Below, one piece after another: positions 1 through 30,540 of a stretch of DNA of 64,000 bases. The stretch is from the IMG/VR virus record IMGVR_UViG_3300042294_004068, positions 46,922 to 110,921 of that record. The stretch is one strand, 5' to 3'. Every line of letters starts with the position of its first letter. The first letter of the stretch is position 1. The stretch comes from a virus. Under the pieces are notes generated by a model. The model saw only the letters and a list, made by a program, of their open reading frames with translations. It had not been told where the DNA came from and made no database searches. Made by a program: the position numbers and the translations under genes.

Positions 1-3638
<3,638 letters not shown>

Positions 3639-8163: not shown

Positions 8164-10847
8164 TGCCCGGCTTTTTAGGTGGTAGCTCAGGCGGCTCAAG
8201 CGGTGTTGGTGGAGAAATTAACTTCCCAAAGGAGTTTATTGACCCAGTAACTAAACTTCGCGTATCCGAGCCTGAGAACCTCATCGATACCGACTTTGAA
8301 TATGGTCTTCAGCCTACTAAGTGGGAAACTGTTGAGCTCATCAACAACACTCCATCATTCTTTTCTAAGTCTGGTGACACCACTATTCCCAACATTACTG
8401 CCATCACAACTAACGATGGCACACGTGAAATTACCGTCAGCACTGGCCTCCCACACGGGCTTGCGGTCGGTATTCCTATTAACGTAACAGGAACAAAATC
8501 AATTACAGCCGATGGTGCATACATCATCAACTCTATTCCGAACCCAAATACTTTCACCTACCTATGTCGCGACGTTCAGCTAGGCAATAACTCTATTGAA
8601 GACCTTTACTCCTCAGTTATTACAGGCGAGTTTTTCCAAGGTTCGCAGCTGCGTCTAGCAGACGCCGCTGGTATTACAACAGACGGTGAGTCAGTTTCAA
8701 CACTTACTGTTACAACAGGTTCTACTCACGGTTTTTATGTTGACACTCCGTTCTATTTCTTGAACCTAAACTCAACTATTTCGCAGGAATTCCCTGCAAA
8801 TAACAACGAAGCTAAGTCTTTTGACGCTTCTAACTCTGCTGTAGCCCAAACATTTGACGGTTCTAACACTCTTTCTCAAATCAATATTGATTGGTCTAAC
8901 TCTGCAACTGTAGCTGGCGTTACTAGCACAGTTAATATGAATGCTCAAAACCTTGTGAACAACACTATTACTGTTGCTCACGGCACAGAAAATTTTGCAA
9001 ACAGAGCTGTTGGAACTCCGTTTTACTATGATGTTGTATCTGGAGGCGGATATTTTGCTACCAATCCTCGCGGCGTTGTCTTCCTAAAAACAGCAACTGC
9101 TCTAGGAACTTCTAGCTCTACCTTCCAAGTTTCAGCAGTTCCAGATGGTGATGTCATTGAAATCCCAACCACAATGACAGGAACTTTCCAGTTAGCTAAC
9201 CAAGCACGTACTTTTGCTGGAAATAATACTAACTCTCTTACAGAAGTTGTAGTTGATATTGTTAAAGATACTCCAAAAGTTTTTGATGGTTCAAACAGCT
9301 CTGTTCAAATAGGTCAAGTAACTTCCTACAGCGGCTCCCTAGTAAACGTCACTTCAGCCCAAGCAATCCCTCTCGAGTGGTACTTCGGAGCTATGGTTTT
9401 CTACAACACCACTGGTACCGCTGCAAACGGTCTTACAAATAACACCACTTATTTTATTGACTCTTTCTTCTCTACTGGCGGACTTAACTACGCTTTCACT
9501 CTTAAACCTCTTCCAACTTCAGCAACAATTACATCAATTTCTGGTGGAACTGGTACTCAAACATTTAAACAAATTGGTGTGTCTCCAGATAGAGATATCT
9601 TCCACGTAAAAGACCACGGATACTCTCGCTTTGACATGCTTCGCTATGTTTCACCTGAAAACGGTGCTTTTACAGTAGTTGACTCATCTCAAGTCAAAAA
9701 TTTCTACTTTGTAGCTACAGTTATTGACCAACACAACTTCACTTTGAATCAGACCGTTGGTGAGCTAAGCCCACTAACTATCTCAAGATCAGGCTTTTCT
9801 AGATACGCAATTACTCCAACAACCGTGACGCCTATAGGTATGACTGCCCCTATTACTTATGCAGTTACAAGCGGAACTCTTCCATCAGGTCTGTCTCTCA
9901 ACCCTTCAACTGGAGTTGTTTCTGGAACTCCTACAGAAAATATTGCAGTCCCAGGACGTCAAGTTATTATTACTGGTACAGACGTAGACGGCATTTCTGC
10001 ATTCCAAGTACATACATATCAGTTTGATCAACCTCCTGCTTTGTACTCATTCTCAAGCGTTACATTCACACCAGGTGGTGCTGGTGGTACAGGTGGTCCT
10101 AACCTATCTCAAGCTCGCTCGGGTGCGGGCAACCCTTCATGGGGTAATACTTATATCAACATGCCAGGCAACACTGGAACAATTGTTTGGACTGTCCCTG
10201 AGGTTGCAACATACCGAGTAGAAGCTTATGGAGCAGCTGGTGGTTGGTCCAACGGTTGGGGTGCTCGTGGTGGCTATGGAACTCGTATGCGTGGAGACTT
10301 TAACTGGAGTCTCGGCGATGAAATTAAAATTGTTGTAGGTCAAGCTGGCTCTAATGATGGTTCTACTGGTGCTGGTGGTGGTGGAAGTTTTGTTGCTCGT
10401 CGCTCAGATAACCTTCCATACTTAGTTGCTGGCGGTGGCGGTGGAGCGGGCGCTGGCTGGTACGGATATTCTGACGCAACTACTGGTGAATCTTCCCGAG
10501 GATCTAACTCATTTGGTGGAGCAGGTGGCGGTAACGGTGGTAACGGCGAGTCTCATGGTGGAGGCGGCGGTTTCTATGGGAACGGCGGCGGCTGGGCAGG
10601 ACCTGGCACATCATTCGTAAATGGTGCATACGGCGGCTCTTACTCAAACGCTGGTGGTTTTGGTGGCGGTGGTGCTAACCGCGGTTGGGCTGGCGGTTCT
10701 GGCGGTGGCGGTGGTTACGCTGGTGGACCAAGTTCTTGGTGGTCATCTGCTGGTGGTGGAGCAGGTTCATACAATGCTGGTGCTAACCGTAGTGATTCGG
10801 AAGTTGCCAGTGGCGGTAACGGTCAAGTTTCAATTACGAGACTGTAG
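8163..10847 (+). CDS. Large appendage protein with Ig-like and C-terminal glycine-rich domains
   Basis: An 894-residue virion protein. The N-terminal half includes a module of HGL...G...I/V-N type near residues 75-145 that recurs across this phage's tail proteins. An Ig-like stretch with the signature SGLSLNPSTGVVSGTP (about residues 575-590) resembles putative Ig (He_PIG-type) domains. The last 250 residues (from about 10070) are glycine-rich: a jellyroll-like lead-in (WTVPEVATYRVEAYGAAGG) followed by many GGGGG, GGGAG and GGNGG runs. Such glycine-rich domains occur at receptor-binding tips of aquatic phage fibers. The ATG overlaps the stop of the preceding 30-codon frame, and a GAGAGG site lies upstream. 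An adhesin role is inferred. Confidence 0.75.
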   Translation: MPGFLGGSSGGSSGVGGEINFPKEFIDPVTKLRVSEPENLIDTDFEYGLQPTKWETVELINNTPSFFSKSGDTTIPNITAITTNDGTREITVSTGLPHGLAVGIPINVTGTKSITADGAYIINSIPNPNTFTYLCRDVQLGNNSIEDLYSSVITGEFFQGSQLRLADAAGITTDGESVSTLTVTTGSTHGFYVDTPFYFLNLNSTISQEFPANNNEAKSFDASNSAVAQTFDGSNTLSQINIDWSNSATVAGVTSTVNMNAQNLVNNTITVAHGTENFANRAVGTPFYYDVVSGGGYFATNPRGVVFLKTATALGTSSSTFQVSAVPDGDVIEIPTTMTGTFQLANQARTFAGNNTNSLTEVVVDIVKDTPKVFDGSNSSVQIGQVTSYSGSLVNVTSAQAIPLEWYFGAMVFYNTTGTAANGLTNNTTYFIDSFFSTGGLNYAFTLKPLPTSATITSISGGTGTQTFKQIGVSPDRDIFHVKDHGYSRFDMLRYVSPENGAFTVVDSSQVKNFYFVATVIDQHNFTLNQTVGELSPLTISRSGFSRYAITPTTVTPIGMTAPITYAVTSGTLPSGLSLNPSTGVVSGTPTENIAVPGRQVIITGTDVDGISAFQVHTYQFDQPPALYSFSSVTFTPGGAGGTGGPNLSQARSGAGNPSWGNTYINMPGNTGTIVWTVPEVATYRVEAYGAAGGWSNGWGARGGYGTRMRGDFNWSLGDEIKIVVGQAGSNDGSTGAGGGGSFVARRSDNLPYLVAGGGGGAGAGWYGYSDATTGESSRGSNSFGGAGGGNGGNGESHGGGGGFYGNGGGWAGPGTSFVNGAYGGSYSNAGGFGGGGANRGWAGGSGGGGGYAGGPSSWWSSAGGGAGSYNAGANRSDSEVASGGNGQVSITRL

Positions 10848-10864
10848 GAAAGAGGATAATATAA

Positions 10865-13800
10865 ATGCCAATTAACGTAACAGCTGCTGGTGCTGTTGGT
10901 ACTCACTCTTTTTCTAGAGTAAACGTGAATCTTGATGAAGATTTCATCTACTTTAAGAATACAGCCCCGAACGTTATCCCAGCTGCCCTAGCTCCTGGAG
11001 TAGCATTTTTGTATACATCTGGTGTTGGGTCAGTTACAGGATTTACCGAGAATGGTCTTGTTTATGTAACTACAACTCAACCAAAAAAACTACAATTTAG
11101 TGCAACTTTTAATGGCTCAGCACTCAATCTTACTGATAGCGCAGCTGGTTCAATTAAGTTTAATACTCCAATTGTTTACGCAAATAAGCTAAATATTGAC
11201 GCATCAACACCAACAAATCAAGCAGTGAAGTATTACACAAACGGAACTCCTTTAGTTGGCTTGACTAGTGGAGATACATACTTCTTAAAGAACGTATCAA
11301 TTTCTGAGTTTGCTGGTTCACAGGCACTTTATGCCTTTACTAGCCACACCTTTACAACCTGTGGAAAGACTGGTCGTGTTGGACCTACTCAAACAGAAAT
11401 GCGTAACTTTTATAATACAACTTGGGACGATCAATATATTTCTCAGGGTTCATTTGTCGGTTATCAAGACTGGACAGTTCCTGTATCTGGTATTTACAGC
11501 TTTAACGTTCGTGGTGCTTCTGGTTTTGATGGTAACGGATCTGGTGGTGTAGGCCGCGGAGCTGTTGTTGAAGGACGTATTGCTTTAACTAAAGGTGAAG
11601 TTATTACAATCGCCGTTGGTCAACGTGGTGAGCAAGGTGGAAGTGCTACATGGGGTGGCTCTGGTGGTGGAACATTCGTTGTTCGTAAAACTGGTAACGA
11701 GCCTTTGTTTGTCGCTGGTGGTGGTTCTGCTGAATCAAACTCTGGTGCTGGACGAGATGGTGTTCTTACAAGACTTGGTGGTACATCTACCAATGGTCAG
11801 CAAGCTGGCGGTAGTGTTGGTTTTGGTGGTCGTGCGCAAAGCCCTCTTGGTTACTCTGCTGCTGGTGGAGGTTTCTTCTCTCGCGGACAGAACGGTAGCT
11901 TTGGCTCAGAACCAACATTTGGTGGTGGTTCATTCCTAGACGGTCTAACCATGGGAACTAACATTCGTACTGGTGGTTATGGTGGTTTTGGTGGCGGTGG
12001 TCAATCTGACGGCAACCGTGTAGGTCAGTCTGGTGGTGGCGGTGGCTACTCTGGTGGTGGCGGTGCTCGTTCTACAACAGCCAACCAGTCTGGTGGTGGT
12101 GGTGGCTCATTCATCGTAGCTACTGCTACAAATGTTGGAACTTCTACAGGTATCTTTGACGGAGCAAACACATTTAATGGTTCTCCAATTTCAAACCTTT
12201 CTACATATAACACAGGTGAAGGTCAAGTTACAGTATCACTAGTTTCTAGCTTTACAACTGGTAACAGTATTCACCCAACAGCACAGGATGCAGAAAACGG
12301 TACAAATGCAATTGCCATTGCACCAGCTGGTTCTTCATACCACGCTTTTGTGCCAATCAGCTTAGACATTCAAAATGATCAAATTCATAGTGCTGCTCCA
12401 CACACTCTTACAAATGGTGAAGCAGTTCAAGTAAATTTCAATGGAGTTCCTCCAGTTGGAATAACAAATGGATCAATTTATTACATAAACACAGTCAGTG
12501 CGTTTAGCTACCGATTGAGCACTACTCCTGCACCATCGTTTACAAATATTAACTTAACTGCTCCATCTTCTCGAGAAGTCGCAACAACTGCTAAGTTGAG
12601 TCGTGTTGTTGTAAACACAGCTACTGACACTTTGACTATTAATAACCACGGATTCTTAGTAGACCAACCTCTACGTTACAACGTTGGTGATGGAACAGCT
12701 ATCGTTCCTCTTATTGATCAAGCTACATACTATGTATCTGAAGTTATCAATGCTAACCAAATTAGGTTGAAGTCTTCTTTGAACTCTCCTACTTACATTA
12801 ATTTCACTAATACTGGTACTGGTACTGGTCACAGCTTTATCTTCTTGACTGTTAACGCTCTTGAAGATACTCTCTACATTCCTAACCACGGCCTTGTATC
12901 TGGTCAAGCAATCCGCTATTCAAAGGGTGGTTCTGGAAACGTTGTCATCCCAGGTTTGACTGATAACAACACCTATTACATTGTTAAAGTTGACAACAGC
13001 ATTGTGCGCCTTGCTACAAACAAAGCATTAAGCATTATTGCAAATATCACTAACCAAGATCCATGGCCAGCAACTGGTACTCATTCGCTGTTTATTACAT
13101 CGCTTGATTACACAACTGACACAATCACTCTTCCAAGTCACGGATTCTTGCAGGGAGAGCTTGTTGAATATGACTCAAAGGGTCAGACAGTTGTCAATGG
13201 TTTGACTACTGCTACTCCATACTACGTAATTTTCGTAGATGGAGATAACATCAAACTTGCTACAACTCCAGAAAATGCTGATGCAGGTACAGCTGTTGAT
13301 CTAACAGCGAGCCCAGCAGGTGTTGGACGTCATACTTTACGTTCTTTGTCAAAGACTCCAGATGGTATTTACACCATCACTTCTACACCTTCTCCTCAGA
13401 CATTTACTGTCGAGGCAGCAGGTAACGTTCCAATTATTACAAAGGTGTTTAACCCAAGAGGCACAATCGACCTTGAGCTAAATACTTTCTTTATTCCTTC
13501 TCACGGTTTTACAACTGGAACAAAAGTCACATATGAGCAAGGAGATGCTGCAACTGATATTGCTGGTTTGACAAACAACACTGATTATTATGTTGTTGCA
13601 ATCAACCGTGACTATCTACGTCTAGCAACTTCAGCAGAAAATGCTGCAGCTGGTATTACTCTTAACATCAGCGACCACGGTACTGGTGTTGGTCACAAGC
13701 TTATTACTGACCAAATCAACGGTAACGTAACTGGTTCAGGAACCGTATCTGTTTCATCTGGTTCTGTTCTTGTTAACGGTTCTGGTACTGCGTTCTCGAA

Positions 13801-16800
13801 GATTCTAAAAGTGGGAGACCGTTTCCGTCTATTCCCACCTAACGTAACTAAGCAGCATGGAACTATGGTTTTTGCTGCTGCAGATGTAAACACAGCTACA
13901 AACTTGATTACAAAGAGCAACACCTTCACTACAGGAACACAAGTTGTGTTCTCTGCTGGTGGTGGAACTGCGCCAGCTCCTCTAGTAGAAGGAGCTACCT
14001 ACTTTGTAAGAGCAGTTAGCGCTGGGTCTACTATGACTCTTCACCCAACATCAACTGATGCTACTAACAATACAAACGTTATTGACCTCACAACAGTTGG
14101 TACTGGAAGTAATTTCTCTATATCTAGCACAGTAAAAACATTTGCTGATGCTGATGTGAATACAACTAACAACAGAATTGTTGACACTCACAATTTTGTC
14201 ACTGGTGATGTTGTTAAGTTTGCAGCAAATGGTGGTGTACCACCAACACCTCTAGTTGATGGTTACTACTACTATGTTCGTGCAGTTTCTAACACAGAAA
14301 TTACTCTGCACACTACATTGAACGATGCTCAAAATAACCTTCAGGCTCTTGACTTCAGTACACAAGGTACTGGTACAGGGTTCACTCTTACAAACACTGT
14401 TCCAGTAGGTCCAATCATTCGTCGTATCACCGCGATTGGTGGAGATACTCAGATTACAGTGGACCGTCCGTATGCAAACGCATATAGCGCTGTTTCTTAC
14501 TCATATCCAACATTCGTCTATGTACGTCCTCAGGGCTACTCACTACACCGTCCATTCGATGGTGGCGTTGAGATGTCAGTAGGTGCTAAGACATCGTTTG
14601 GTCAGATTGTTCGTCAGACTCGTAAGTACTTCCGTTACCAATCAGGTAAGGGTATTCAGTCTTCTTGCGGTGTTAACTTCCAGCCTTCAATTGACCTTGA
14701 GAGTATGAGACAGTTCAGCTCACTTACAGTTGAATGTAAGACTCGTCGCCCTCACGGACTTGTTTCTGGTCTCTTTATTGTAGTAAATGGTGCAGAAGAT
14801 TCTTATGGAAATACAAGCACTGTTTACAACGGAGAGTTCCAAGTAACAGTTGTTGACCTAACAACATTCCGATTTACTTCTACACAACCGATTATTGAAA
14901 ACCGTGCTTACGGATTCCCTCAGTTCTATGTTCGTGAGTGGTCAAACGGTGCTGTCCGTGAAGGTATGTTCGACTTCCAGAACGGTGCATACTTCGAGTT
15001 CGATGGTGAAGCTATCTACGCCGTACGTCGTTCATCTACTCAGCAGCTAGCAGGTACAGCAGCTGCTCTACAAGGCTCAGAGCTTATCTTTGGAACAAAC
15101 ACAGCGTTCCAAGCTCAGGTTGAAGTTGGTGACTTTATTGTTATGCGTGGTCAGTCTTATAGAATTACAGAGATTGAGTCAGATACACGTATGTCGATTC
15201 GTCCTGAGTATAAGGGTTCTTCTGGAACAGAGAAGGAATTCAATCCTCAGACTCAAGTCAATACAACCACTGACATCTTTACAATTATTGGTCATGGTTT
15301 TGCTGATCGTTTACCAGTTATCTACAACTCCATTGACGGCGAGCCTATTGGTGGAATGATTAACGGTCGTACATACTATGTTGATTTGATTAACAACAAC
15401 ACCTTTAAACTTGTTGCTGACCCAGATTCTGAAATTAACGTAGATTTGTCTACTACAGGAACAACCACAGTCCACTCATTTGTACCTGCTAAGTCAGGTA
15501 TTGTTATGACAAAGACTGTAGATACCCGAGTTCCTCAAAGCCAGTGGAACATCGACGTTTGCGATGGTTCTGGTCCTACAGGATATAACTTAGATATTTC
15601 TCGTATTCAGATGGCTTACATTGACTACTCTTGGTACGGTGCAGGTAAGATTCGCTTCGGTTTCAAGACTACAGACGGTCAAGTACAGTACGTTCACGAG
15701 TTTGTCCACAACAACAACTTGTTCGAGTCATACTTCCGTTCAGGTAACTTGCCAGCTCGTTATGAAGTTGTAACTTACGAGAACCCAACTTATATTCCTT
15801 ACCTCTTCCACTGGGGTACTTCGGTCATCATGGATGGTCGTTTCGATGATGACAACGCGTACCTCTTCACTGGTTCAAGCCAGACTCTGCAGGTAACTGG
15901 AACAACCGCTAAGTCATTTGCTTCATCTGGTATCAACCTAACAACTGACTTGTTTACTGTACAGAGTCACGGTTTTGCAACTGGTGATTTGCTACAGTTC
16001 CAGTCAATTGCTACTAACGGATTCCCAGGTAATAACCTTTTGAACCCAGCAACTCAGATTGTTGGTTCTAACACAAGAGCTAACCTGACTAACGATGCGT
16101 TGTATGGAGTTCTGGTCAATTCACCTAACTTGATTCACTTGACCCCACCTAACGTAACAATTAGCCGTGGAACTTCATATGCAATCAATCCTCAGACAAT
16201 TACTAGTGCTCAAACTGGTACGACTGTAACTATCGTAACCACACAACCACACAACTTGAGTACTGGTATGTATGTCGGTGTATACGGCTCAACCCGTGTG
16301 CCAAATGGTCCGTTCTATGTGACAGTTACTAACTCAACTACATTCACATATCAGGCAACCAACGTTTCAACACCTGTGACTGCACTAAATGATCCAGCTA
16401 TCATCATCTCTGAGGTCATTAACTTCACTACCCAAGGAAACACCCAGTACACTTACTTCTTATATCCAAATGGCTCATTGAACAACACATCTGGTCCTAA
16501 CTACCAGCCATTGTTATCAATTCGCCTCTCTCCTTCAGTATCTGAAGGTTTGACAGGTAAGCTTGGTGACCGAGACGTTATCAACCGAATGCAGCTACGT
16601 TTGCAGGAAATTGGTGTGTCTACGACACAGTTGGTTGACTGTAAGGTTCTTCTAAATCCACGTCTAAACAACCTAAACTTCGTGGGTGTAGATACACCTT
16701 CCTTGACTCAGATTGTTGAGCACACAGCTCAGGACACAGTGTCTGGTGGAGTTCAGGTTTACAACTTCCGTGCTGCTGGTGGTGCTAGCGGTGCTGAAGA

Positions 16801-19384: not shown

Positions 19385-20977
19385 ATGAGTGAATACAAAG
19401 AGTACACAGTTACTACAGAAAGTCTAGAGCTTACTGATGCTGTGTGGGACGCTCTTCTTACTGAGGGAAGTAATCTAACTACTATTCCTATTAGAGCCGT
19501 GGAAGTGGCAAACGATAGGCCAGAAAACCCTTTAAACACTTCATACTGGCTAACAGATAGAGAAGCAGAGTTTTTAAGACAAGACCCTCGCGTTTCCGAT
19601 GTACAAGACCTAAGCATTTTTAAACCACAAAAGTTAGCTTTTCAAACTGGAACTTTTGATAAAACTACAAATCAAACTGGTCCTAAAGTTAACTGGGGAT
19701 TGTTGAGACATTCAAAGCTATCTAATGTTTATGGAAGTAGTCTTTTAGACCCAGGTGGAACCTATGACTATGTTTTAGATGGTTCTAATGTTGACGTTGT
19801 AATTATAGATAGCGGTATTCAAGCCAACCACCCTGAATTTTTATATTCTGATGGTAGTGGTGCAAGTAGAGTAAACCTTGTAGATTGGTTTGCAGTCAGT
19901 GGTGTTTCTGGAAGTATGCCCTCAGGGTTCTATCAAGATTATGATGGTCATGGAACTCACGTTGCTGCTACTGTTGCTGGTCTTAATTTTGGATGGGCAA
20001 AAAATGCAAGAATTTATTCTATAAAGCTTGAAGGATTAAGAGCTCCTAGTGATCCTGGAGAAGGGTTTGACGTAGCAACCGCTTTTGATGTGTTAATTGG
20101 TTGGCACAATAACAAAACAAATGGAAGACCTACTGTTGTTGTTAATAGCTGGGGGTATGGAGTATTTCATAGAGCAGATTTAGAAGCCTTTTCATTTGGC
20201 TTAGATGAATCAGAAACTCTTTACGCTATAAATGGAGGGGTTTACCGAGGTGTTGCTTGGGAAGGTACTGTATTAGACACTGCAAAAGGTCACACTGGTG
20301 CTCTTGTTGCTCCATCTACTTATAGATATCCATTTAGAGTTGCTGCTGTTGATGCTGACATTAGAACTGGCGCTGAAGCTGGAATTTTATTTGTCAACGC
20401 TGCTGGAAATGAGTTTACAAAAATTGATGTTCAAGGTGGATTTGATTACAACAACTACATCCTCACTGACTTTGGCGCTTTTACATACCACAGAGGTGGC
20501 ACACCAGGAGCTAGTATTACAGCACGAGAGAGTGTTTTTACTGTAGGTTCTGTTGACCACCAAACAGTCACTGGAACTTCAACAGACAGAAAGTCAAACT
20601 TCAGTAATTCTGGTCCAGGAGTGACAGTTTATGCCGCTGGGTCCAGAATTATGAGTGCAATGAGCCAAGTTAATGACGATAACTCTAACTACCCGTACTT
20701 TTTAAATGGCTCTTTTAAGCAGCAACTTTTGTCTGGTACCTCCATGGCAGCTCCTCAAATTGCAGGTATAGCGGCTCTTGTATATCAAATGCACCCAGAC
20801 TGGACCCCAAGACAGGTCATCAACTTCATCAAAGATAAGTCATTTTCTAGTCTTTTTAAGACTGACCTCACAAATGACTATACGAATGTCCATAGCGTGC
20901 ATGGTGGCGCTAACCTGATAGCCTACGTACCTATGGCTTCACAGAGAAAATTCTCCTTCCAAAGAGCCACGGTATAG
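19385..20977 (+). CDS. Subtilisin-family (S8) serine protease
   Basis: A 530-residue protein with an intact subtilase catalytic triad: Asp142 in VIIDSG, His189 in DGHGTHVAA and Ser453 in GTSMAAP, plus the oxyanion Asn342 in AAGNE. An N-terminal region of about 120 residues could be a prodomain (it ends near the start of the catalytic core). No signal peptide or membrane segment is seen, so the enzyme would stay in the cytoplasm or be packaged with the virion. Two insertions (about 155-180 and 215-300) enlarge the core. It lies 12 bases after a collagen-like gene and 50 bases before another, on the same strand. Possible roles are processing of fiber proteins, degradation of host surface protein at adsorption, or lysis; the context favours the first two. 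Confidence 0.9.
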   Translation: MSEYKEYTVTTESLELTDAVWDALLTEGSNLTTIPIRAVEVANDRPENPLNTSYWLTDREAEFLRQDPRVSDVQDLSIFKPQKLAFQTGTFDKTTNQTGPKVNWGLLRHSKLSNVYGSSLLDPGGTYDYVLDGSNVDVVIIDSGIQANHPEFLYSDGSGASRVNLVDWFAVSGVSGSMPSGFYQDYDGHGTHVAATVAGLNFGWAKNARIYSIKLEGLRAPSDPGEGFDVATAFDVLIGWHNNKTNGRPTVVVNSWGYGVFHRADLEAFSFGLDESETLYAINGGVYRGVAWEGTVLDTAKGHTGALVAPSTYRYPFRVAAVDADIRTGAEAGILFVNAAGNEFTKIDVQGGFDYNNYILTDFGAFTYHRGGTPGASITARESVFTVGSVDHQTVTGTSTDRKSNFSNSGPGVTVYAAGSRIMSAMSQVNDDNSNYPYFLNGSFKQQLLSGTSMAAPQIAGIAALVYQMHPDWTPRQVINFIKDKSFSSLFKTDLTNDYTNVHSVHGGANLIAYVPMASQRKFSFQRATV

Positions 20978-23097: not shown

Positions 23098-23727
23098 ATG
23101 CCAATTAATGTCGGGTCCATTGCTGGTGCAGGTTATTTAAAAAACCCTGCAGAAGCTTTTAATTTAGATTACAGGGTTAATTATATTAAAAACCCGACTT
23201 TTGAAGTAGACATCTCTGACTGGACACCTTTTGCTGGAACTACCTTAGAAAGAGATACAAACGAATTTAACACAGGGTCAGCTTGTCTTAAAGTTACAAA
23301 CACCTCTGGAGGAGGTGTTCAAACACTTGAAAGAATCCCATTTATTGACACTTCAGAAGAGTGGACTGTCAGCGCTTATGTAAAGCTTGATGCTCTAAAT
23401 GACAATGCGACTTACTATCTTCGTCATCTTCAATACACCACAAGCAATGCTTCAGCTGCTATATCTAGTGGAAATATTGGAATTCAAGCCCTAACTAGTG
23501 CTGATGGCTGGGTTAGATTGAGCGGGTCTTTTACTAGAACCTCTGGAGCTAATTTTTTTGCACTAAGAATTGTGACCACTTCAGCATCTAATACAGACGT
23601 ATTTTTTGTTGACTCTGTTATGGCAGAAAGGTCTTCCACTTTGGGGACCTATTTTGATGGCTCACTAGACGGATTTTGGACTGGAACTCCCCACTCAAGC
23701 TATAGCGGTGCTACCCCATACGTGTAA
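23098..23727 (+). CDS. Carbohydrate-binding-module-like virion protein
   Basis: A 209-residue product when started at the ATG two bases after the previous stop; an in-frame GTG at 23062 would add 12 residues but lies inside the previous gene. I prefer the ATG because MPINVGSIAGAG resembles the start of the 2034-residue protein (MPINVTAAGAVG). The pattern NYIKNPTFEVDISDWTPFAG, then S.CLKV, then WTVSAYVK and FFVDSVMAE is that of a beta-sandwich carbohydrate-binding module (CBM4/9-like). The family link is by eye. It probably binds host glycans or decorates the fiber tip. Confidence 0.65.
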   Translation: MPINVGSIAGAGYLKNPAEAFNLDYRVNYIKNPTFEVDISDWTPFAGTTLERDTNEFNTGSACLKVTNTSGGGVQTLERIPFIDTSEEWTVSAYVKLDALNDNATYYLRHLQYTTSNASAAISSGNIGIQALTSADGWVRLSGSFTRTSGANFFALRIVTTSASNTDVFFVDSVMAERSSTLGTYFDGSLDGFWTGTPHSSYSGATPYV

Positions 23728-23759: not shown

Positions 23760-24335
23760 ATGACATATCCCAACTGGTTTGAAAATGATGGTCAAGAGAA
23801 CTTTAAAAACCATCTACTAGAGTTTTTAAATAAACCTGCTCGAATGTTGCAAATAGGCGCATACACAGGGGATGCTTCTGTGTGGCTTTGGGACAACATA
23901 TTACGTCACAACCCAGACTCGGTGTTGATTGATGTAGACACGTGGGAGGGTTCTGACGAACCTGTTCATAATCAGATGAACTGGGAGTCTGTAGAAAGTT
24001 TTTATGATGTAAAAACTTTAGTAGGGCAGCAGAGCAAAAAAATTATTAAAGTCAAGTCTACAAGTGATTGGTTTTTTAAAAATAATTTAGAGAAGTATGA
24101 CTTTGTGTATGTTGATGGGGATCATACTTCCTATGGTGTAATAAAAGATGCAATAAGCGCTTACGAGTGTTTAAATGTAAATGGAATAATAGCTTTTGAT
24201 GATTATCAATGGTCCGCTGGGCTTGGCTATTTAAATGAGCCAAAGTTGGCAATAGATGCCTTTAATGCAGTTTATTCGGACCGACTCGAACTTTTAGTTG
24301 ACGGATATCAGCGTTGGTATAGGAAGACAAGGTAG
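23760..24335 (+). CDS. Class I SAM-dependent methyltransferase
   Basis: A 191-residue Rossmann-type methyltransferase of the Methyltransf_24 kind. Motif I is MLQIGAYTGD (about residues 29-38), followed by an acidic strand SVLIDVDTWEG and the characteristic FVYVDGDHTSYGVIKDA near residue 115, with a later IIAFDDYQW. Relatives typically methylate sugars or small molecules and sit in glycan biosynthesis clusters. Here the gene lies directly upstream of a glycosyltransferase and a halogenase, after the fiber genes, with a clear AAAGGAC ribosome site. Methylation of a virion or host glycan, or of an intermediate handled by the neighbouring enzymes, is a reasonable inference; the substrate is unknown. 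Confidence 0.8.
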   Translation: MTYPNWFENDGQENFKNHLLEFLNKPARMLQIGAYTGDASVWLWDNILRHNPDSVLIDVDTWEGSDEPVHNQMNWESVESFYDVKTLVGQQSKKIIKVKSTSDWFFKNNLEKYDFVYVDGDHTSYGVIKDAISAYECLNVNGIIAFDDYQWSAGLGYLNEPKLAIDAFNAVYSDRLELLVDGYQRWYRKTR

Positions 24336-24344
24336 GATGCTCAC

Positions 24345-25421
24345 ATGAAAGTAGCTATATACACAATCGCATTAAATGAACGACAGTTTGTTGATAAATG
24401 GTATGAAGCTTCAAAAGAAGCTGATTACTTGTTAATAGCCGATACAGGCTCCACAGACGGCACCGTTGAGCGTGCAAAAGAGCTTGGAATTAATGTAGTC
24501 GATGTTCGAGTATCCCCTTGGCGTTTTGATGATGCTAGAAACGCAGCAATGGCAGCTTTACCAATCGATATTGATATGTGTATCTCCCTTGATATGGATG
24601 AAGTAATTACTCCTAACTGGCGTCCATTGCTTGAAGCTGCATGGCAACGTGGAGTAACACGTCCTCGCTATAAGCATATTTGGTCTTGGAATGATGATGG
24701 GACTCCAGGTTTGGAGTTTAGCTATGACCACATTCATACTCGTAAAAATTATCGTTGGCGTCACCCAGTGCATGAGTGTTTATATGTATACGGACGCGAG
24801 GAAGTACAAGAGTGGATTGAAGGTTTAGAGACTCACCACCACCCAGACCCAACAAAGTCGCGCTCTCAGTATCTACCGTTGTTAGCTCTTTCTGTTCAAG
24901 AAGATCCATATAACGACCGCAATGCGTTCTACTATGGTCGAGAACTTTATTTTTATGGTCGCTACCAAGAAGCAGCAGTAGAGCTAAAGCGACATCTTGA
25001 ACTCCCAACAGCTCGGTGGGCACCAGAGCGTGCTGCATCAATGCGCTTTATTGGTAAGAGTCTTCCTGCAGAAGCAGAGATTTGGTTTCGTAAAGCTATC
25101 GATCAAGCTCCAGGACGACGTGAACCTTTTGTTGATTTAGCAGAGTTGTACTATCAACGTAAAGATTGGCAGAAGTGTTATGAAGCTGCTAAAGATGCTA
25201 TTGCCATTGCTGAGAAACCTTTAGAGTATTTGTGCGAAGCAAAAGCATGGGGAGCAGCCCCGCACGATTTTGCTGCAATTTCTGCTTACTATTTAGGTAA
25301 GTTTGAAGAAGCAGTGGAGCATGCAAAGAACGCTTTTAGCATCGAGCCAGATAATGAAAGACTTGCAGAAAATCTTAAATTTTGTCTTAGCGCTGTAAAT
25401 CCAGAAGAAAAGAGTGTCTAG
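24345..25421 (+). CDS. Family 2 glycosyltransferase with C-terminal TPR repeats
   Basis: A 358-residue protein. The GT-A fold is marked by an N-terminal IYTIALNE strand, the nucleotide-binding DTGSTDGT (residues 33-40) and a DMDE metal motif (83-86). A HPVHECL segment follows, typical of SPBc2-like and tetratricopeptide glycosyltransferases. From about residue 210 onward the chain is helical with TPR-like pairs (for example FVDLAELYYQRKDWQKCYEAA and YYLGKFEEAVEHAKNAFSIEP). TPR-fused GT2 enzymes often glycosylate proteins. Threonine-rich collagen shafts encoded upstream are possible acceptors. The gene is 9 bases after the methyltransferase and its stop overlaps the halogenase GTG by one base, so the three are probably co-translated. 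Confidence 0.85.
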   Translation: MKVAIYTIALNERQFVDKWYEASKEADYLLIADTGSTDGTVERAKELGINVVDVRVSPWRFDDARNAAMAALPIDIDMCISLDMDEVITPNWRPLLEAAWQRGVTRPRYKHIWSWNDDGTPGLEFSYDHIHTRKNYRWRHPVHECLYVYGREEVQEWIEGLETHHHPDPTKSRSQYLPLLALSVQEDPYNDRNAFYYGRELYFYGRYQEAAVELKRHLELPTARWAPERAASMRFIGKSLPAEAEIWFRKAIDQAPGRREPFVDLAELYYQRKDWQKCYEAAKDAIAIAEKPLEYLCEAKAWGAAPHDFAAISAYYLGKFEEAVEHAKNAFSIEPDNERLAENLKFCLSAVNPEEKSV

Positions 25422-26929
25422 TGAAATTTGTAGTCTGTGGTGGTGGAACAGCTGGATGGCTTACCGCTTTAACCATTCACTCTAGTAATCCAAAGTTTCA
25501 TGAAGTAGTGGTTATAGAATCACAAAAAATAGGAATTATTGGAGCTGGAGAGGCTACAAGCGGTTTTCTCTACGATGTATTAGATGGCTCTACTTTATTT
25601 GGAAATAATCAAACAATGAACCCAAACAAAGTGGCTTTTGATTTTGCAGAGTTTGCTAAAAAAGTCGATGCTGTACCTAAGTACGCACTTAAACACATCA
25701 ACTGGGCTAAAGACAAAGGCTCTTATTGGGCACCAATTAACGGCTCAGAAACTTCTAAGCGCTCTCCTGACCATCTATTTAATTATGTTGTAACAGAGTT
25801 TGGTCCTGAAAAAGCTTATCTATCTTCTGTATTAGGGCAGTCTTATGATCTAAATAAACTTCCGCCAGCGGGTGGAGGTTATGGGTTTCAGTTTGATGCC
25901 CATAAAGTAGCTAAATTTTTACGAGAGTATATAACTACAACCACAAAAACTACTCATATAGATTCAATTATCAAGGATGTTACTGTTACTAGCGATGGTC
26001 TAGTTGAAAGCGTAATTATCGAAGATGGTCAAGTCATTGAAGGAGATTTTTTCATTGACGCTACTGGATTTGTTAGATTGTTGGCAAACAAGGTCGGGAT
26101 TGGGTGGACAGACTACAAAAACCAACTTCTTGTAGATAGAGCTATGCCTTTTATAGTTCCATACAAAGAAGAAGAAAAAGTACAACCTGTAACAGTTGCA
26201 GAAGCTCTTTCTTCTGGTTGGATGTGGCGAACTCCTACAGGAGGCCGCCGAGGTTGTGGGTATGTCTACAGCAGTGCGTTTATTTCTGAGGATGAAGCTC
26301 AAAAAGAAGCTGAAAAAATTATGGGGCACCCTATTGAGCCAATTAAGCATATTAAATATGAATCAGGCCGAGTGGACCAATTTTGGAAAGGCAATGTTTT
26401 GGTAGTTGGCCTTGCAAGCTCTTTTATTGAACCTTTAGAGGCAACCAGTATTCATGCAACTATTATGCAAATTTTTAGTTTCTGTCAAGAGTATCTTTCA
26501 GATACAAAAGAAAAAACTTTAAACCCTGCTTCAATACAAAAATACAACGCTAAAACTGAAAAAATGTATGAGTATTATAAAGACTTCACGGTGTTCCACT
26601 ATCAAGGTGGAAGAGAAGATTCCGAGTTTTGGAAAACTATTAAGTTCGACAAGATTACCTCTCCTGCTGTAGAAAACTACATCGAGAGGTCAAAGAGTAG
26701 AATTCCTAGTGCTTTACATTTTATGGATTTTTGGGGTGTAGATTCTCTATGGAAGTGGACCTTAGCTGGTCTTGGGTATGTTTCAAGAGAACAAGCAATG
26801 AGTGAGTTGAAACAATTTGATCAATTTGAATTTGCTCAAGCTCAATACAGAGCATTTAGAGAAGACATGAGAAAAATTCATGAAAATAGTAGACCTTTTG
26901 AGATGAATCCCAAAGACTTTATTATTTAA
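25421..26929 (+). CDS. Flavin-dependent tryptophan-halogenase-family protein
   Basis: A 502-residue protein of the tryptophan 7-halogenase family. The FAD-binding GGGTAGW motif is at residues 7-13, and GAGEAT lies at about 41-46. Lys87 (in PKYALKHINW) falls, by eye alignment, where the catalytic lysine of RebH/PrnA sits. The diagnostic WxWxIP motif appears as WMWRTP (residues 267-272), with Thr in place of Ile. FIEPLEATS (335-343) carries the expected Glu337 and halide-loop residues. Length is normal for the family. It starts with GTG overlapping the upstream TAG. Known phage relatives include the cyanophage enzyme VirX1, which halogenates small molecules in vitro. Partner flavin reductase is not in the window. 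The biological substrate cannot be read from sequence; tyrosine or tryptophan in virion protein, or a host metabolite, are options. Confidence 0.88.
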   Translation: MKFVVCGGGTAGWLTALTIHSSNPKFHEVVVIESQKIGIIGAGEATSGFLYDVLDGSTLFGNNQTMNPNKVAFDFAEFAKKVDAVPKYALKHINWAKDKGSYWAPINGSETSKRSPDHLFNYVVTEFGPEKAYLSSVLGQSYDLNKLPPAGGGYGFQFDAHKVAKFLREYITTTTKTTHIDSIIKDVTVTSDGLVESVIIEDGQVIEGDFFIDATGFVRLLANKVGIGWTDYKNQLLVDRAMPFIVPYKEEEKVQPVTVAEALSSGWMWRTPTGGRRGCGYVYSSAFISEDEAQKEAEKIMGHPIEPIKHIKYESGRVDQFWKGNVLVVGLASSFIEPLEATSIHATIMQIFSFCQEYLSDTKEKTLNPASIQKYNAKTEKMYEYYKDFTVFHYQGGREDSEFWKTIKFDKITSPAVENYIERSKSRIPSALHFMDFWGVDSLWKWTLAGLGYVSREQAMSELKQFDQFEFAQAQYRAFREDMRKIHENSRPFEMNPKDFII

Positions 26930-27470
26930 GTTGTTGCTTCTTAAGTTTTTTAGCTAAACGTTTCTTTTCTAGCTTTAAAGCTTTTTTCTCTCGAATGCGT
27001 GCTCTTTTTTCAGATTTATCAATACGCTCTTGTTTATAAGCTTCAATAGCATTTACGCTAGTTCGACTGCGCCAAGAAAAGCCACACACCGTACATGTGA
27101 CTATCTTGGCGACAGTCCACCTACCACCACCAGGAATTTCCTGAGAACTTGTTTCCAGCTTTGAAGGACGTGCTGAGCAATAAGGACAGTGCGGGTATCT
27201 ACGGCGTTTTATCTCTTCACCCTTATAAGAAACAGAAAGTGCTCGACGTATTTCACTTTCGTCTTTGCCGCCCCATGTGCCCCAAATTTGTCGGTGCTCT
27301 AAAGCCCACTGCAGACATTGCGCTCTTACGGGACATTCATAGCAAAGATTTTTTGCATCATATTTTTGCTTTGGGTCTTTGGAGAAAAACCAGTCTCTAT
27401 AATGATTATTTCCTGGCTGAGCACAAAGGGCTTCAGACTGCCATTCTATGTTATTAGCTGGTTTCCACAC
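26922..27470 (-). CDS. WhiB-like iron-sulfur regulator with extra zinc-ribbon
   Basis: A 182-residue protein. The N-terminal Wbl domain has Cys16, Cys43, Cys46 and Cys52 (C...CxxCxxxxxC) for a 4Fe-4S cluster, followed by the typical GTWGG turn (64-68). Unlike most Wbl proteins (80-130 residues) it continues with a second Cys pair set, Cys95/Cys98 and Cys126/Cys129, which looks like a zinc ribbon, and a very basic Lys-rich tail that could bind DNA or RNA. The start is GTG, since the overlapping ATG is out of frame. It is the last gene of the leftward unit; its 3' end overlaps the halogenase gene by 8 bases on the opposite strand. Wbl proteins are actinobacterial, so this indicates host group. 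It may redirect host sigma factor activity. Confidence 0.88.
   Translation of the reverse strand: MWKPANNIEWQSEALCAQPGNNHYRDWFFSKDPKQKYDAKNLCYECPVRAQCLQWALEHRQIWGTWGGKDESEIRRALSVSYKGEEIKRRRYPHCPYCSARPSKLETSSQEIPGGGRWTVAKIVTCTVCGFSWRSRTSVNAIEAYKQERIDKSEKRARIREKKALKLEKKRLAKKLKKQQLK
26926..26951 (+). terminator. Weak hairpin with T-run at the convergent junction
   Basis: TTAAG (26926-26930) can pair with CTTAA (26940-26944), followed by six T (26946-26951). The stem is only five A/T-rich pairs and overlaps both convergent stop codons, so it is at best a feeble terminator for the rightward unit. Confidence 0.2.
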
Positions 27471-29503: not shown

Positions 29504-30517
29504 TTAAGCTAACTGTTTTAGTGTTTTAGTTAATTTTTCGTTTATATCATCTTGGCTAGGAAGTTGATCAAGATATGATTGTTTTTGACTAAACGCTAGT
29601 TCTGTCCGTTCCACCGTGTCCATAAGCTCTACGCTTGTTGCAAGATGTCTCCACTCTTCTCCCATATACCCCGTGATTTTCCAATCGTGAACTACAGGAA
29701 CCCCCTGAGATAGAGATTGAGCAAGTGCAGGAGACCACCAAGATTCATTATTTCTATAGGTAGGTACAATCGTTCCGACTGCTCCACGGATATGAGTGAG
29801 AGTCTCTGATTCAACTTCCCAAACGTCTTGTTTGATTGGGACAACCTTTTTTGTCAGCATTTGAGCGTAGCTTTTTCCAGAAGAATTAAAAGAATCGCAC
29901 ACCCAATACTCGTCACTGAGGTAGTAGTTTTTTGTTTTTTCTGGCTGAAGAAGGATGTACGAATCCACACTTACGCCTACTAGGCTTTCTGCAGAAAGAT
30001 TAGGAAGATATTTAGTTAGTAGGTCTGCAGTTGACCATGGGTAGGATGGGTAAAAAGTTGTGGGCCACGGTTCATTACTCAGATATTCAACAAAACTTTT
30101 AATCTCGGCTTTAAGCTCTGGATTGTCTACAACATCAGAATAACTTTTTCTTCTGTCATAAAAACTTTTAAAAGTTGACGCCTCGGTGGTCCAAGCATTT
30201 AGAGACGGAGGAATTTTAAAACTCTCTGGGGCATCAATTAAAAGAGATAGGTTTCCTATTTCTTTACACTTATTTGCTGTTATAAAAGCAGGATAAATTT
30301 TGTTAGCAGAGATGCTGGTTGTTGGGGCAATACCAACTATTACCAAATCAAACTTTTCTAGATAAGACTTTTCCCAGTTAATTTGAGGGGAGGCAAAAGT
30401 AACGTCAACGCCAGCATTTTTAAAATTTTGACCTAATAAGTTACTAAAAGTAGGAGTTCTCTCTGCATGCTTTTTAGACGCTTGCTGTGCAGTACATCCA
30501 GTAATTAAAACTTTCAT
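29504..30517 (-). CDS. Possible GT-B glycosyltransferase
   Basis: A 337-residue protein when started at the second ATG (30517). I choose it because the AAAGGAC ribosome site sits just before it, and MKVLITGCTA is a natural beginning of a Rossmann fold; the ATG at 30532 would place this site inside the gene. The N-terminal half has TGCTAQQ and LVIVGIAP strands. The C-terminal half has a PALAQSLSQGVPVVHDW segment like the E/D-A...G.PV..s.. motif of GT-B donors. The family call is tentative. Modification of DNA or virion sugar is possible. It follows a strong hairpin after the SSB-like gene. Confidence 0.5.
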   Translation of the reverse strand: MKVLITGCTAQQASKKHAERTPTFSNLLGQNFKNAGVDVTFASPQINWEKSYLEKFDLVIVGIAPTTSISANKIYPAFITANKCKEIGNLSLLIDAPESFKIPPSLNAWTTEASTFKSFYDRRKSYSDVVDNPELKAEIKSFVEYLSNEPWPTTFYPSYPWSTADLLTKYLPNLSAESLVGVSVDSYILLQPEKTKNYYLSDEYWVCDSFNSSGKSYAQMLTKKVVPIKQDVWEVESETLTHIRGAVGTIVPTYRNNESWWSPALAQSLSQGVPVVHDWKITGYMGEEWRHLATSVELMDTVERTELAFSQKQSYLDQLPSQDDINEKLTKTLKQLA

Positions 30518-30540
30518 AATGTCCTTTTTCATTTATGTGA

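Follow-up and report, generated by a model that had tools for sequence, protein, structure and literature searches.

Three enzyme genes at the end of a tail fiber operon

We analyzed a 64,000-nucleotide stretch of DNA from a lake virus (the window), which comprises bases 46922 to 110921 of the 110,921-base IMG/VR record IMGVR_UViG_3300042294_004068, and focused on three consecutive genes that follow its tail fiber genes (Table 1). These genes are predicted to encode a methyltransferase (MT), a glycosyltransferase (GT), and a flavoenzyme of the tryptophan halogenase family (HAL). An initial annotation, made from the nucleotide sequence alone, had placed three open reading frames (ORFs) behind the fiber genes, spaced by 9 and -1 bases, and its coordinates proved exact; the first gap separates MT from GT and the second lies between GT and HAL, which starts with the GTG of a TAGTG sequence. 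The convergent WhiB gene forms the boundary of the module in this phage clade. Because of this WhiB gene and the kinship of the virus to the Actinomycetia phage DSL-LC01, we infer an actinobacterial host. The CBM_4_9 fiber protein likely starts further on than tabulated, near position 23098, and its orthologs in several relatives are 207 to 213 amino acids long. A megablast search with window positions 10000 to 34000 returned a single phage match at 1% coverage, and a scan for promoters and terminators yielded sites no more numerous than in shuffled sequence.

Table 1. Positions (window numbering) of the three enzyme genes and their neighbors
Feature	Position	Strand	Basis or remark
Collagen-like tail protein, 797 aa	16979..19372	+	78 Gly-X-Y triplets, GPT most frequent; presumed GT acceptor
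S8 subtilase, 530 aa, within fiber operon	19385..20977	+	Peptidase_S8 2.7e-30
Collagen-like fiber protein, 528 aa	21028..22614	+	Collagen 3e-11; 33 Gly-X-Y triplets
Short collagen-like fiber protein, 153 aa	22634..23095	+	10 Gly-X-Y triplets
CBM_4_9 carbohydrate-binding fiber protein, 221 aa	23062..23727	+	CBM_4_9 1e-9
MT: Methyltransf_24 S-adenosylmethionine methyltransferase, 191 aa	23760..24335	+	Pfam
GT: GT2 (GT-A) domain and C-terminal tetratricopeptide repeats (TPR), 358 aa	24345..25421	+	Pfam, PHROGs, fold model
HAL: tryptophan-halogenase-family flavoenzyme, 502 aa	25421..26929	+	Pfam, PHROGs, K87, E340, WMWRTP
WhiB-like regulator, convergent	26922..27470	-	Whib 4.3e-17; 8-base overlap with HAL

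The order of the three genes is shared by close relatives, as the cassette proposed in the initial annotation would predict. Among 21 IMG/VR loci with HAL, the region is covered in 20 (the remaining locus, L021, starts within HAL), and MT, GT, and HAL occur in that order in all 20, which is more than chance would give, although several of these contigs are near-copies and the loci are hence not 20 independent cases. The spacing between MT and GT is 2 or 9 bases in 18 of the 20, and small ORFs lie between the two genes in L015 and L018. Identity to the window proteins falls to about 62% for MT, 78% for GT, and 53% for HAL. In comparisons with up to four relatives, the ratio of nonsynonymous to synonymous substitution rates (dN/dS) was 0.057 to 0.068 for HAL, 0.038 to 0.061 for GT, and 0.044 to 0.084 for MT (one MT pair was saturated), and it was 0.085 to 0.182 for the subtilase and CBM fiber genes; dS was close to saturation, which makes these ratios rough. 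All three enzyme genes are nonetheless plainly under purifying selection.

A wider survey separated a core from an optional part. Alignment searches with GT, HAL, and MT (the best 80 of 584 relatives for GT and the best 80 of 141 for MT) were dereplicated to 93 GT genes, and 67 modules had both a WhiB gene downstream and 1.5 kb or more of sequence on that side. MT was present in 57 of these modules and HAL in 29, and we therefore regard GT and MT as the core and HAL as an add-on. On the GT tree, the presence of HAL requires 11 changes, at least 7 of them forced by well-supported branches, compared with about 22 when labels are shuffled; HAL has, on this tree, been gained or lost several times. 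Its position varies as well, with the order MT-GT-HAL in the window type, MT-HAL-GT in L073/L176, L164, L181, L183 to L187, and L189, and HAL-GT in DSL-LC01. A megablast search with positions 1157 to 7714 of L183 gave no match. The notion of one coupled three-enzyme cassette therefore holds in that the genes are conserved, lie beside fiber genes, and are under purifying selection, but it has to be amended in that the core is GT plus MT and HAL is optional and placed otherwise in some relatives.

The glycosyltransferase core and its collagen-like neighbors

GT matches Glycos_transf_2 (1.3e-5) and TPR in Pfam and a beta-1,4-glycosyltransferase family in PHROGs (6.6e-117), a name also carried by several annotated members of the family, and its structure was modeled with a predicted local distance difference test score (pLDDT) of 91. 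The best fold matches of this model were the peptide S-glycosyltransferases SunS and ThuS (Foldseek E of 3.8e-14 to 7msn; Z of 22.0 over 258 residues at 2.5 Å to 7msp by VIA), with Z scores of 22.0 and 21.2 at 12 to 16% identity, and profile matches included GmaR and SunS. SunS derives from the SPbeta prophage, and both SunS and ThuS act on a small peptide, a bacteriocin, at a Cys residue. Judged by its model, GT has a protein-glycosyltransferase fold and is the anchor of the module.

A parallel in size and setting is SgtA of Clostridioides difficile, a 358-amino-acid protein with a GT-A domain and four TPRs, whose gene lies immediately upstream of the collagen-like gene bclA3 and which is described as placing beta-O-GlcNAc on Thr of peptides from the BclA3 collagen region, a region with GPT triplets, in vitro (PMC7157674). 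GT likewise has 358 amino acids and a GT-A/GT2 domain followed by TPRs, and collagen-like genes rich in Gly-Pro-Thr share its operon, the closest ending 665 bases upstream of MT. Five tail ORFs in the window (the ORF at 78-3638 is left out of this count) hold 205 Gly-X-Y triplets in total, with Thr at Y in 55%. The likeness is one of layout, size, and context rather than of compared sequences, and unlike SgtA, GT is encoded in a phage tail operon with MT and an optional HAL.

The link to collagen-like genes recurs beyond the close relatives. Under a loose rule (at least five Gly-X-Y triplets in a row in an ORF of more than 100 amino acids), a collagen-like ORF lies near 60 of the 93 dereplicated phage GT genes. 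Where no WhiB gene was in view, this held for 15 of 25 GTs, three of which lie on one contig, and for 12 of 22 when L012, L159, and L200, apparent members of the WhiB clade, were excluded. In bacteria, a stricter rule applied to flanks of up to 6 kb found a collagen-like ORF near 30 of 74 relatives of GT in GTDB. A strict (GPT)2-G(P/A)T DNA motif was present in 11 of 15 collagen-positive GTDB genomes and, among the matches listed, lay outside the GT locus by contig number and position in 3 of the 15 (G002, G008, and G009); these genomes were picked from collagen-positive loci, so that the motif count gauges background only. By analogy with SgtA, GT probably glycosylates Thr residues of the collagen-like tail fibers.

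The assignment of MT rests on Methyltransf_24 in Pfam (9.5e-13; 49.4 bits against a cutoff of 26.3). Weaker matches in PHROGs are to families named DNA methyltransferase, the best PDB match is weak (caffeoyl-coenzyme A O-methyltransferase, 0.0044), and relatives among named phages were limited to two records at about 30% identity. Neither MT nor GT matched a defense model in PADLOC, and the HAL match (18 bits, 0.00038) has no stretch passing alone. For the neighboring S8 protein, PADLOC gave a match to its subtilase model (4.9e-18), which represents a general protease family.

An optional halogenase, probably with more than one origin

HAL belongs to Trp_halogenase in Pfam (PF04820; 2.6e-83, 280.8 bits against a cutoff of 21) and to the tryptophan halogenase family in PHROGs (1.1e-90). 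Its flavin adenine dinucleotide (FAD) module contains the GxGxxG signature (VCGGGTAGWL), and the motifs GGGTAGW, WMWRTP, and FIEPLE read from the sequence at the outset were all found. The catalytic residues were assigned by alignment as K87 (K79 in PrnA) and E340 (E346), the Lys by way of an alignment of the record's second halogenase with Thal and the Glu by direct alignment with RebH. In an alignment of 53 halogenase rows (50 different), the Lys column holds K in all 53 and the Glu column holds E in 50 of 53 (three rows are duplicates); both residues are kept in every window-type row, as the initial annotation had expected of a working halogenase. The exceptions at the Glu column are DSL-LC01 (Asp) and the cyanophages S-RIM44 (L029 7935-9371) and S-PM2 (L030 7941-9416) (Gln). 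Since exchange of the catalytic glutamate is described as leaving low activity with Asp and none with Gln (PMC8407142), the annotated tryptophan halogenases of S-PM2 and S-RIM44 may not halogenate. The motif WMWRTP is found in most window-type rows, with WMWRTD in L018, WIWRTP in L061, and the canonical WxWxIP in several others; other halogenases within the module have WMWNIP, WMWKIP, WSWKIP, or WMWNVP.

The closest solved relatives of HAL by sequence are the tryptophan halogenases PrnA, RebH, Thal, and PyrH. With these and with VirX1 of cyanophage Syn10, HAL shares the family, GxGxxG, and the catalytic Lys and Glu; it differs from them in its WMWRTP motif, a Trp-recognition loop that cannot be aligned, and its location alongside GT and MT in a tail operon. 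Profile alignments to PrnA and RebH end ahead of this loop, which in RebH covers the Trp with Y454, Y455, E461, and F465 (PMC5945002), and a weak alignment to PyrH spans the region without clear matches. The halogenase BrvH is described as having an open substrate site, as missing the loop with which RebH binds Trp, and as not accepting Trp as a substrate (PMC5945002).

Phage halogenases had been called rare, with VirX1 as the known case, but their genes are not very rare: 65 of 50,697 phage records (duplicates included) match HAL at E of 1e-5 or better, and 54 of the 65 carry the name Synechococcus phage, Cyanophage, or Prochlorococcus phage. According to a review, VirX1 was the first viral halogenase to be characterized (PMC8407142). 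On a tree of the 53 rows, those from loci with GT followed by HAL (23, of which 20 are different) form one fork with support of 100/98, L135 being the exception, and 20 of the 21 distinct rows in the window-type clade lie inside the module. Rows with HAL ahead of GT group elsewhere in the tree; the module order in this second lineage is MT-HAL-GT. Phage halogenases that do not adjoin a GT, including those of cyanophages, branch on both sides of the tree between the two module groups, and the simplest reading is that halogenases were recruited into the same module at least twice; the long branches of DSL-LC01 and a few others leave their exact place unsure. Because two separate lineages occupy the module at different positions, the link between HAL and the module does not look like one accident, and the tree provides the best evidence that HAL is functionally coupled to it. 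The halogenase of L140, a sister of the window-type clade, has tail genes on one side and collagen-like genes on the other, and the 13 kb examined contain no GT; this HAL and a 217-amino-acid gene adjoin collagen-like genes with many GYS and GFS triplets, and the GYS triplets would offer Tyr to HAL, although a single case is anecdotal.

Several further observations concern halogenases and their neighbors. The same virus record carries a second tryptophan halogenase gene outside the window (G000 12318-13952; L026, also L022) with a canonical WMWMIP motif; it falls within a nine-row fork of the MT-HAL-GT type, and beside it are a DUF6065-like gene (11683-12387) and a 313-amino-acid gene with no Pfam match. 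DUF6065-like genes, possibly encoding another tailoring enzyme, recur beside phage halogenases (L061 7077-7787, L135 2341-4180, L026 11683-12387, and L027 4328-5056), where the Pfam match (3.5e-7) is for L027 only and the other tested genes were named by a similar N terminus. A 247-amino-acid gene that is probably DUF6065-like lies ahead of GT in L050, L165, and L166, which have no HAL. The contigs L137, L139, and L141 each hold three or four halogenase genes. A small protein family of 114 to 124 amino acids (starting MTKNYKDPNFF or similar; L051 3447-3791, L061 9348-9692, and L060 5597-5971) occurs in 6 of 24 modules with HAL and 0 of 14 without it (p = 0.067), and its L061 copy has no Pfam or NCBIfam match. 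In a scan of neighboring genes, the strongest HAL associations besides HAL itself and S8 were genes past WhiB, which the length of HAL displaces from the counting window, and they were discarded as artifacts.

DSL-LC01 (OQ999401), a metagenome-assembled phage, shares with the window the collagen genes, a HAL, a GT (62% identical to that of the window), and the convergent WhiB gene. It differs in its HAL-GT order, in having no MT in the slot, and in a HAL of 23 to 26% identity with altered active-site motifs. This halogenase is discussed as an auxiliary gene in the paper on that phage (PMC10611076), and a YHYH-domain protein (PF14240, 1.9e-22) is encoded directly upstream of it (OQ999401 103851-105221; L024 18852-20222). 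A 342-amino-acid gene at 29504-30532 on the minus strand of the window, with no match in Pfam, PHROGs, or NCBIfam, is retained in those HAL-bearing relatives whose loci extend that far, although in some it is truncated or broken up to give two ORFs. Two diverged copies of it, one annotated as a glycosyltransferase, flank a UDP-galactopyranose mutase gene in DSL-LC01.

Candidate function in virion decoration

Modification of virion proteins, one of the roles suggested at the outset, is the one we judge most plausible. Specifically, from gene context and analogy, the locus may be a facultative module by which aquatic actinophages decorate their virions, acting on collagen-like tail fibers, a proposal to which we give even chances. 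In the cytoplasm, the TPR part of GT would dock the collagen-like tail proteins, whose GPT triplets would then receive a sugar at Thr, in the manner of SgtA with BclA3, and MT would O-methylate this sugar or glycan. Where present, HAL would draw on O2, halide, and reduced FAD (FADH2) supplied by a host flavin reductase to form hypohalous acid, which K87 and E340 would relay to the side chain of an aromatic residue in a tail protein. For the phage, the gain might be altered fiber stability, host binding, or shielding. Halogenation by HAL of aromatic residues in the tail proteins decorated by GT and MT, be they the collagen-like ones or their neighbors, is a step we propose only tentatively.

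A number of observations weigh against this reading. HAL is absent from 38 of the 67 modules, whose remainder does without it (in 7 of the 38, namely L052, L059, L080, L083, L087, L089, and one of two in L086, less than about 1.6 kb lies upstream with no MT in view, so that an MT or halogenase ahead of GT could escape notice). Among the GTDB relatives of GT, 44 of 74, including all Mesorhizobium rows, have no collagen-like ORF in the flanks examined, which makes the family broader than one tied to collagen alone, and the teichoic acid enzymes TarS and TarP are also among the fold matches of GT. Aromatic enrichment of fibers in modules with HAL was sought and not found; if anything, the reverse holds. 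Trp plus Tyr in collagen-like fibers is lower with HAL (4.02 per 100 residues, n = 46) than without it (4.51, n = 25; p = 0.013), and in CBM fibers it does not differ (6.98 with HAL and 6.62 without; p = 0.66), neither comparison being tree corrected. At three columns of the CBM fiber alignment, the Trp/Tyr frequency differs by over half, at two in favor of modules with HAL and at one against; these columns are too few, and this comparison is likewise not tree corrected. In HAL itself, WxWxIP reads WMWRTP, with both W and P kept and I replaced by T, and the HAL of DSL-LC01 has lost the second Trp of this motif in addition to carrying Asp for Glu. The AlphaFold2 model of HAL, built from 13 close rows, is poor (pLDDT of 54), and no pocket claims were drawn from it. 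Finally, flavin reductase (PF01613) was not found in the virus record (0/1; the control was detected in 13 of 14 genomes), and a host enzyme could provide it.

Some of these points would suit an arrangement in which MT and GT decorate fibers and HAL is an independent enzyme for a small molecule (free tryptophan, indole, or a host metabolite) that occupies a convenient late-operon slot, which we consider rather doubtful. HAL is optional and repeatedly gained or lost, its nearest solved relatives are tryptophan halogenases, some cyanophage halogenases lie among the metabolic genes talC, gnd, and petE, and the fibers are not enriched in aromatics. Countering this are the two lineages at two module positions, the near confinement of window-type rows to the module, the tail-gene setting of the L140 halogenase, and the end of the PrnA and RebH alignments ahead of the Trp-recognition loop.

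The altered motif raises a different alternative, that HAL is a peptidyl-aromatic monooxygenase which hydroxylates Trp or Tyr in a protein, since WxWxIP has been suggested to prevent monooxygenase function (PMC5945002). Its model would be QhpG, which has a halogenase-like fold, dihydroxylates a peptidyl Trp, and is encoded in one operon with the subtilase QhpE (PMC7876137); this precedent makes it conceivable that a halogenase-like fold acts on a protein residue, but QhpG is a monooxygenase. NCBIfam matches of HAL to QhpG (5.2e-5; 22.3 bits against a cutoff of 240) and of S8 to QhpE (0.0017; 17.7 bits against 165) are far under their cutoffs, whereas the Pfam Trp_halogenase match is strong, the halogenase K and E are retained in all window-type rows, and the window protein keeps both Trp residues and the Pro of WxWxIP. 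We consider this alternative improbable. In raw counts, the S8 subtilase accompanies 20 of 22 modules with HAL and 4 of 14 without it (Fisher p = 0.0002), and a QhpG/QhpE-like pairing of HAL with S8 was tried and dropped: across five independent pairs on the GT tree, an average of 2.7 pointed in the same direction, 0.1 in the opposite one, and 2.2 showed no difference (median p = 0.25), so that the link is not significant after tree correction, a further point against the proposed decoration. The subtilase may possibly process fibers.

We judge it similarly improbable that the cassette acts not on the virion but on host surface polymers, to exclude superinfection, or on DNA. For glycosyltransferases of two cultivated Nanopelagicales phages, whose kinship to this phage was not examined, a role in protecting DNA or preventing superinfection has been proposed (PMC10202952), and TarS and TarP would fit a polymer target. 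Against this, the cassette is located at the end of the tail fiber operon, the top fold matches of GT are peptide glycosyltransferases, and the link to collagen-like genes recurs in bacteria.

Decoration of the fibers, the reading we prefer, joins elements that are already known separately, namely, phage halogenase genes, phage virion glycosylation, and a TPR-glycosyltransferase that modifies Thr in a collagen-like protein; their combination appears to be new. The broader claim that a halogenase linked to glycosylation and methylation genes would be new needs to be narrowed, as sugar-related and methyltransferase genes adjoin halogenases elsewhere; among the families examined in L137, the halogenases lie beside genes for 2OG-FeII_Oxy_5, an HAD phosphatase, a carbamoyltransferase, and an FkbM methyltransferase. 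In the literature searched, which was mostly outside subscription papers, we found no report of a phage halogenase-glycosyltransferase-methyltransferase cassette or of virion halogenation. Mycobacteriophage virion proteins are glycosylated (Freeman et al. 2023, cited in PMC12619734); those glycans are on capsid and tail tube C termini of actinophage virions, whereas collagen-like fibers and a halogenase are concerned here. For VirX1, the passages of the review cited name only test substrates (PMC8407142).

Halogenases of separate lineages joined to GT behind collagen-like fiber genes provide a concrete candidate substrate for a group of enzymes, the phage tryptophan halogenases, for which we know of no natural substrate. 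If the proposal is true, these enzymes would gain a protein substrate and a function, in the making of halogenated, methyl-glycosylated tail fibers, and the halogen step would add a new type of chemistry to virus coats. Collagen glycosylation of the SgtA type would then be extended to phage tails, and a role could be suggested for a large family of phage glycosyltransferases, with 584 relatives in IMG/VR.

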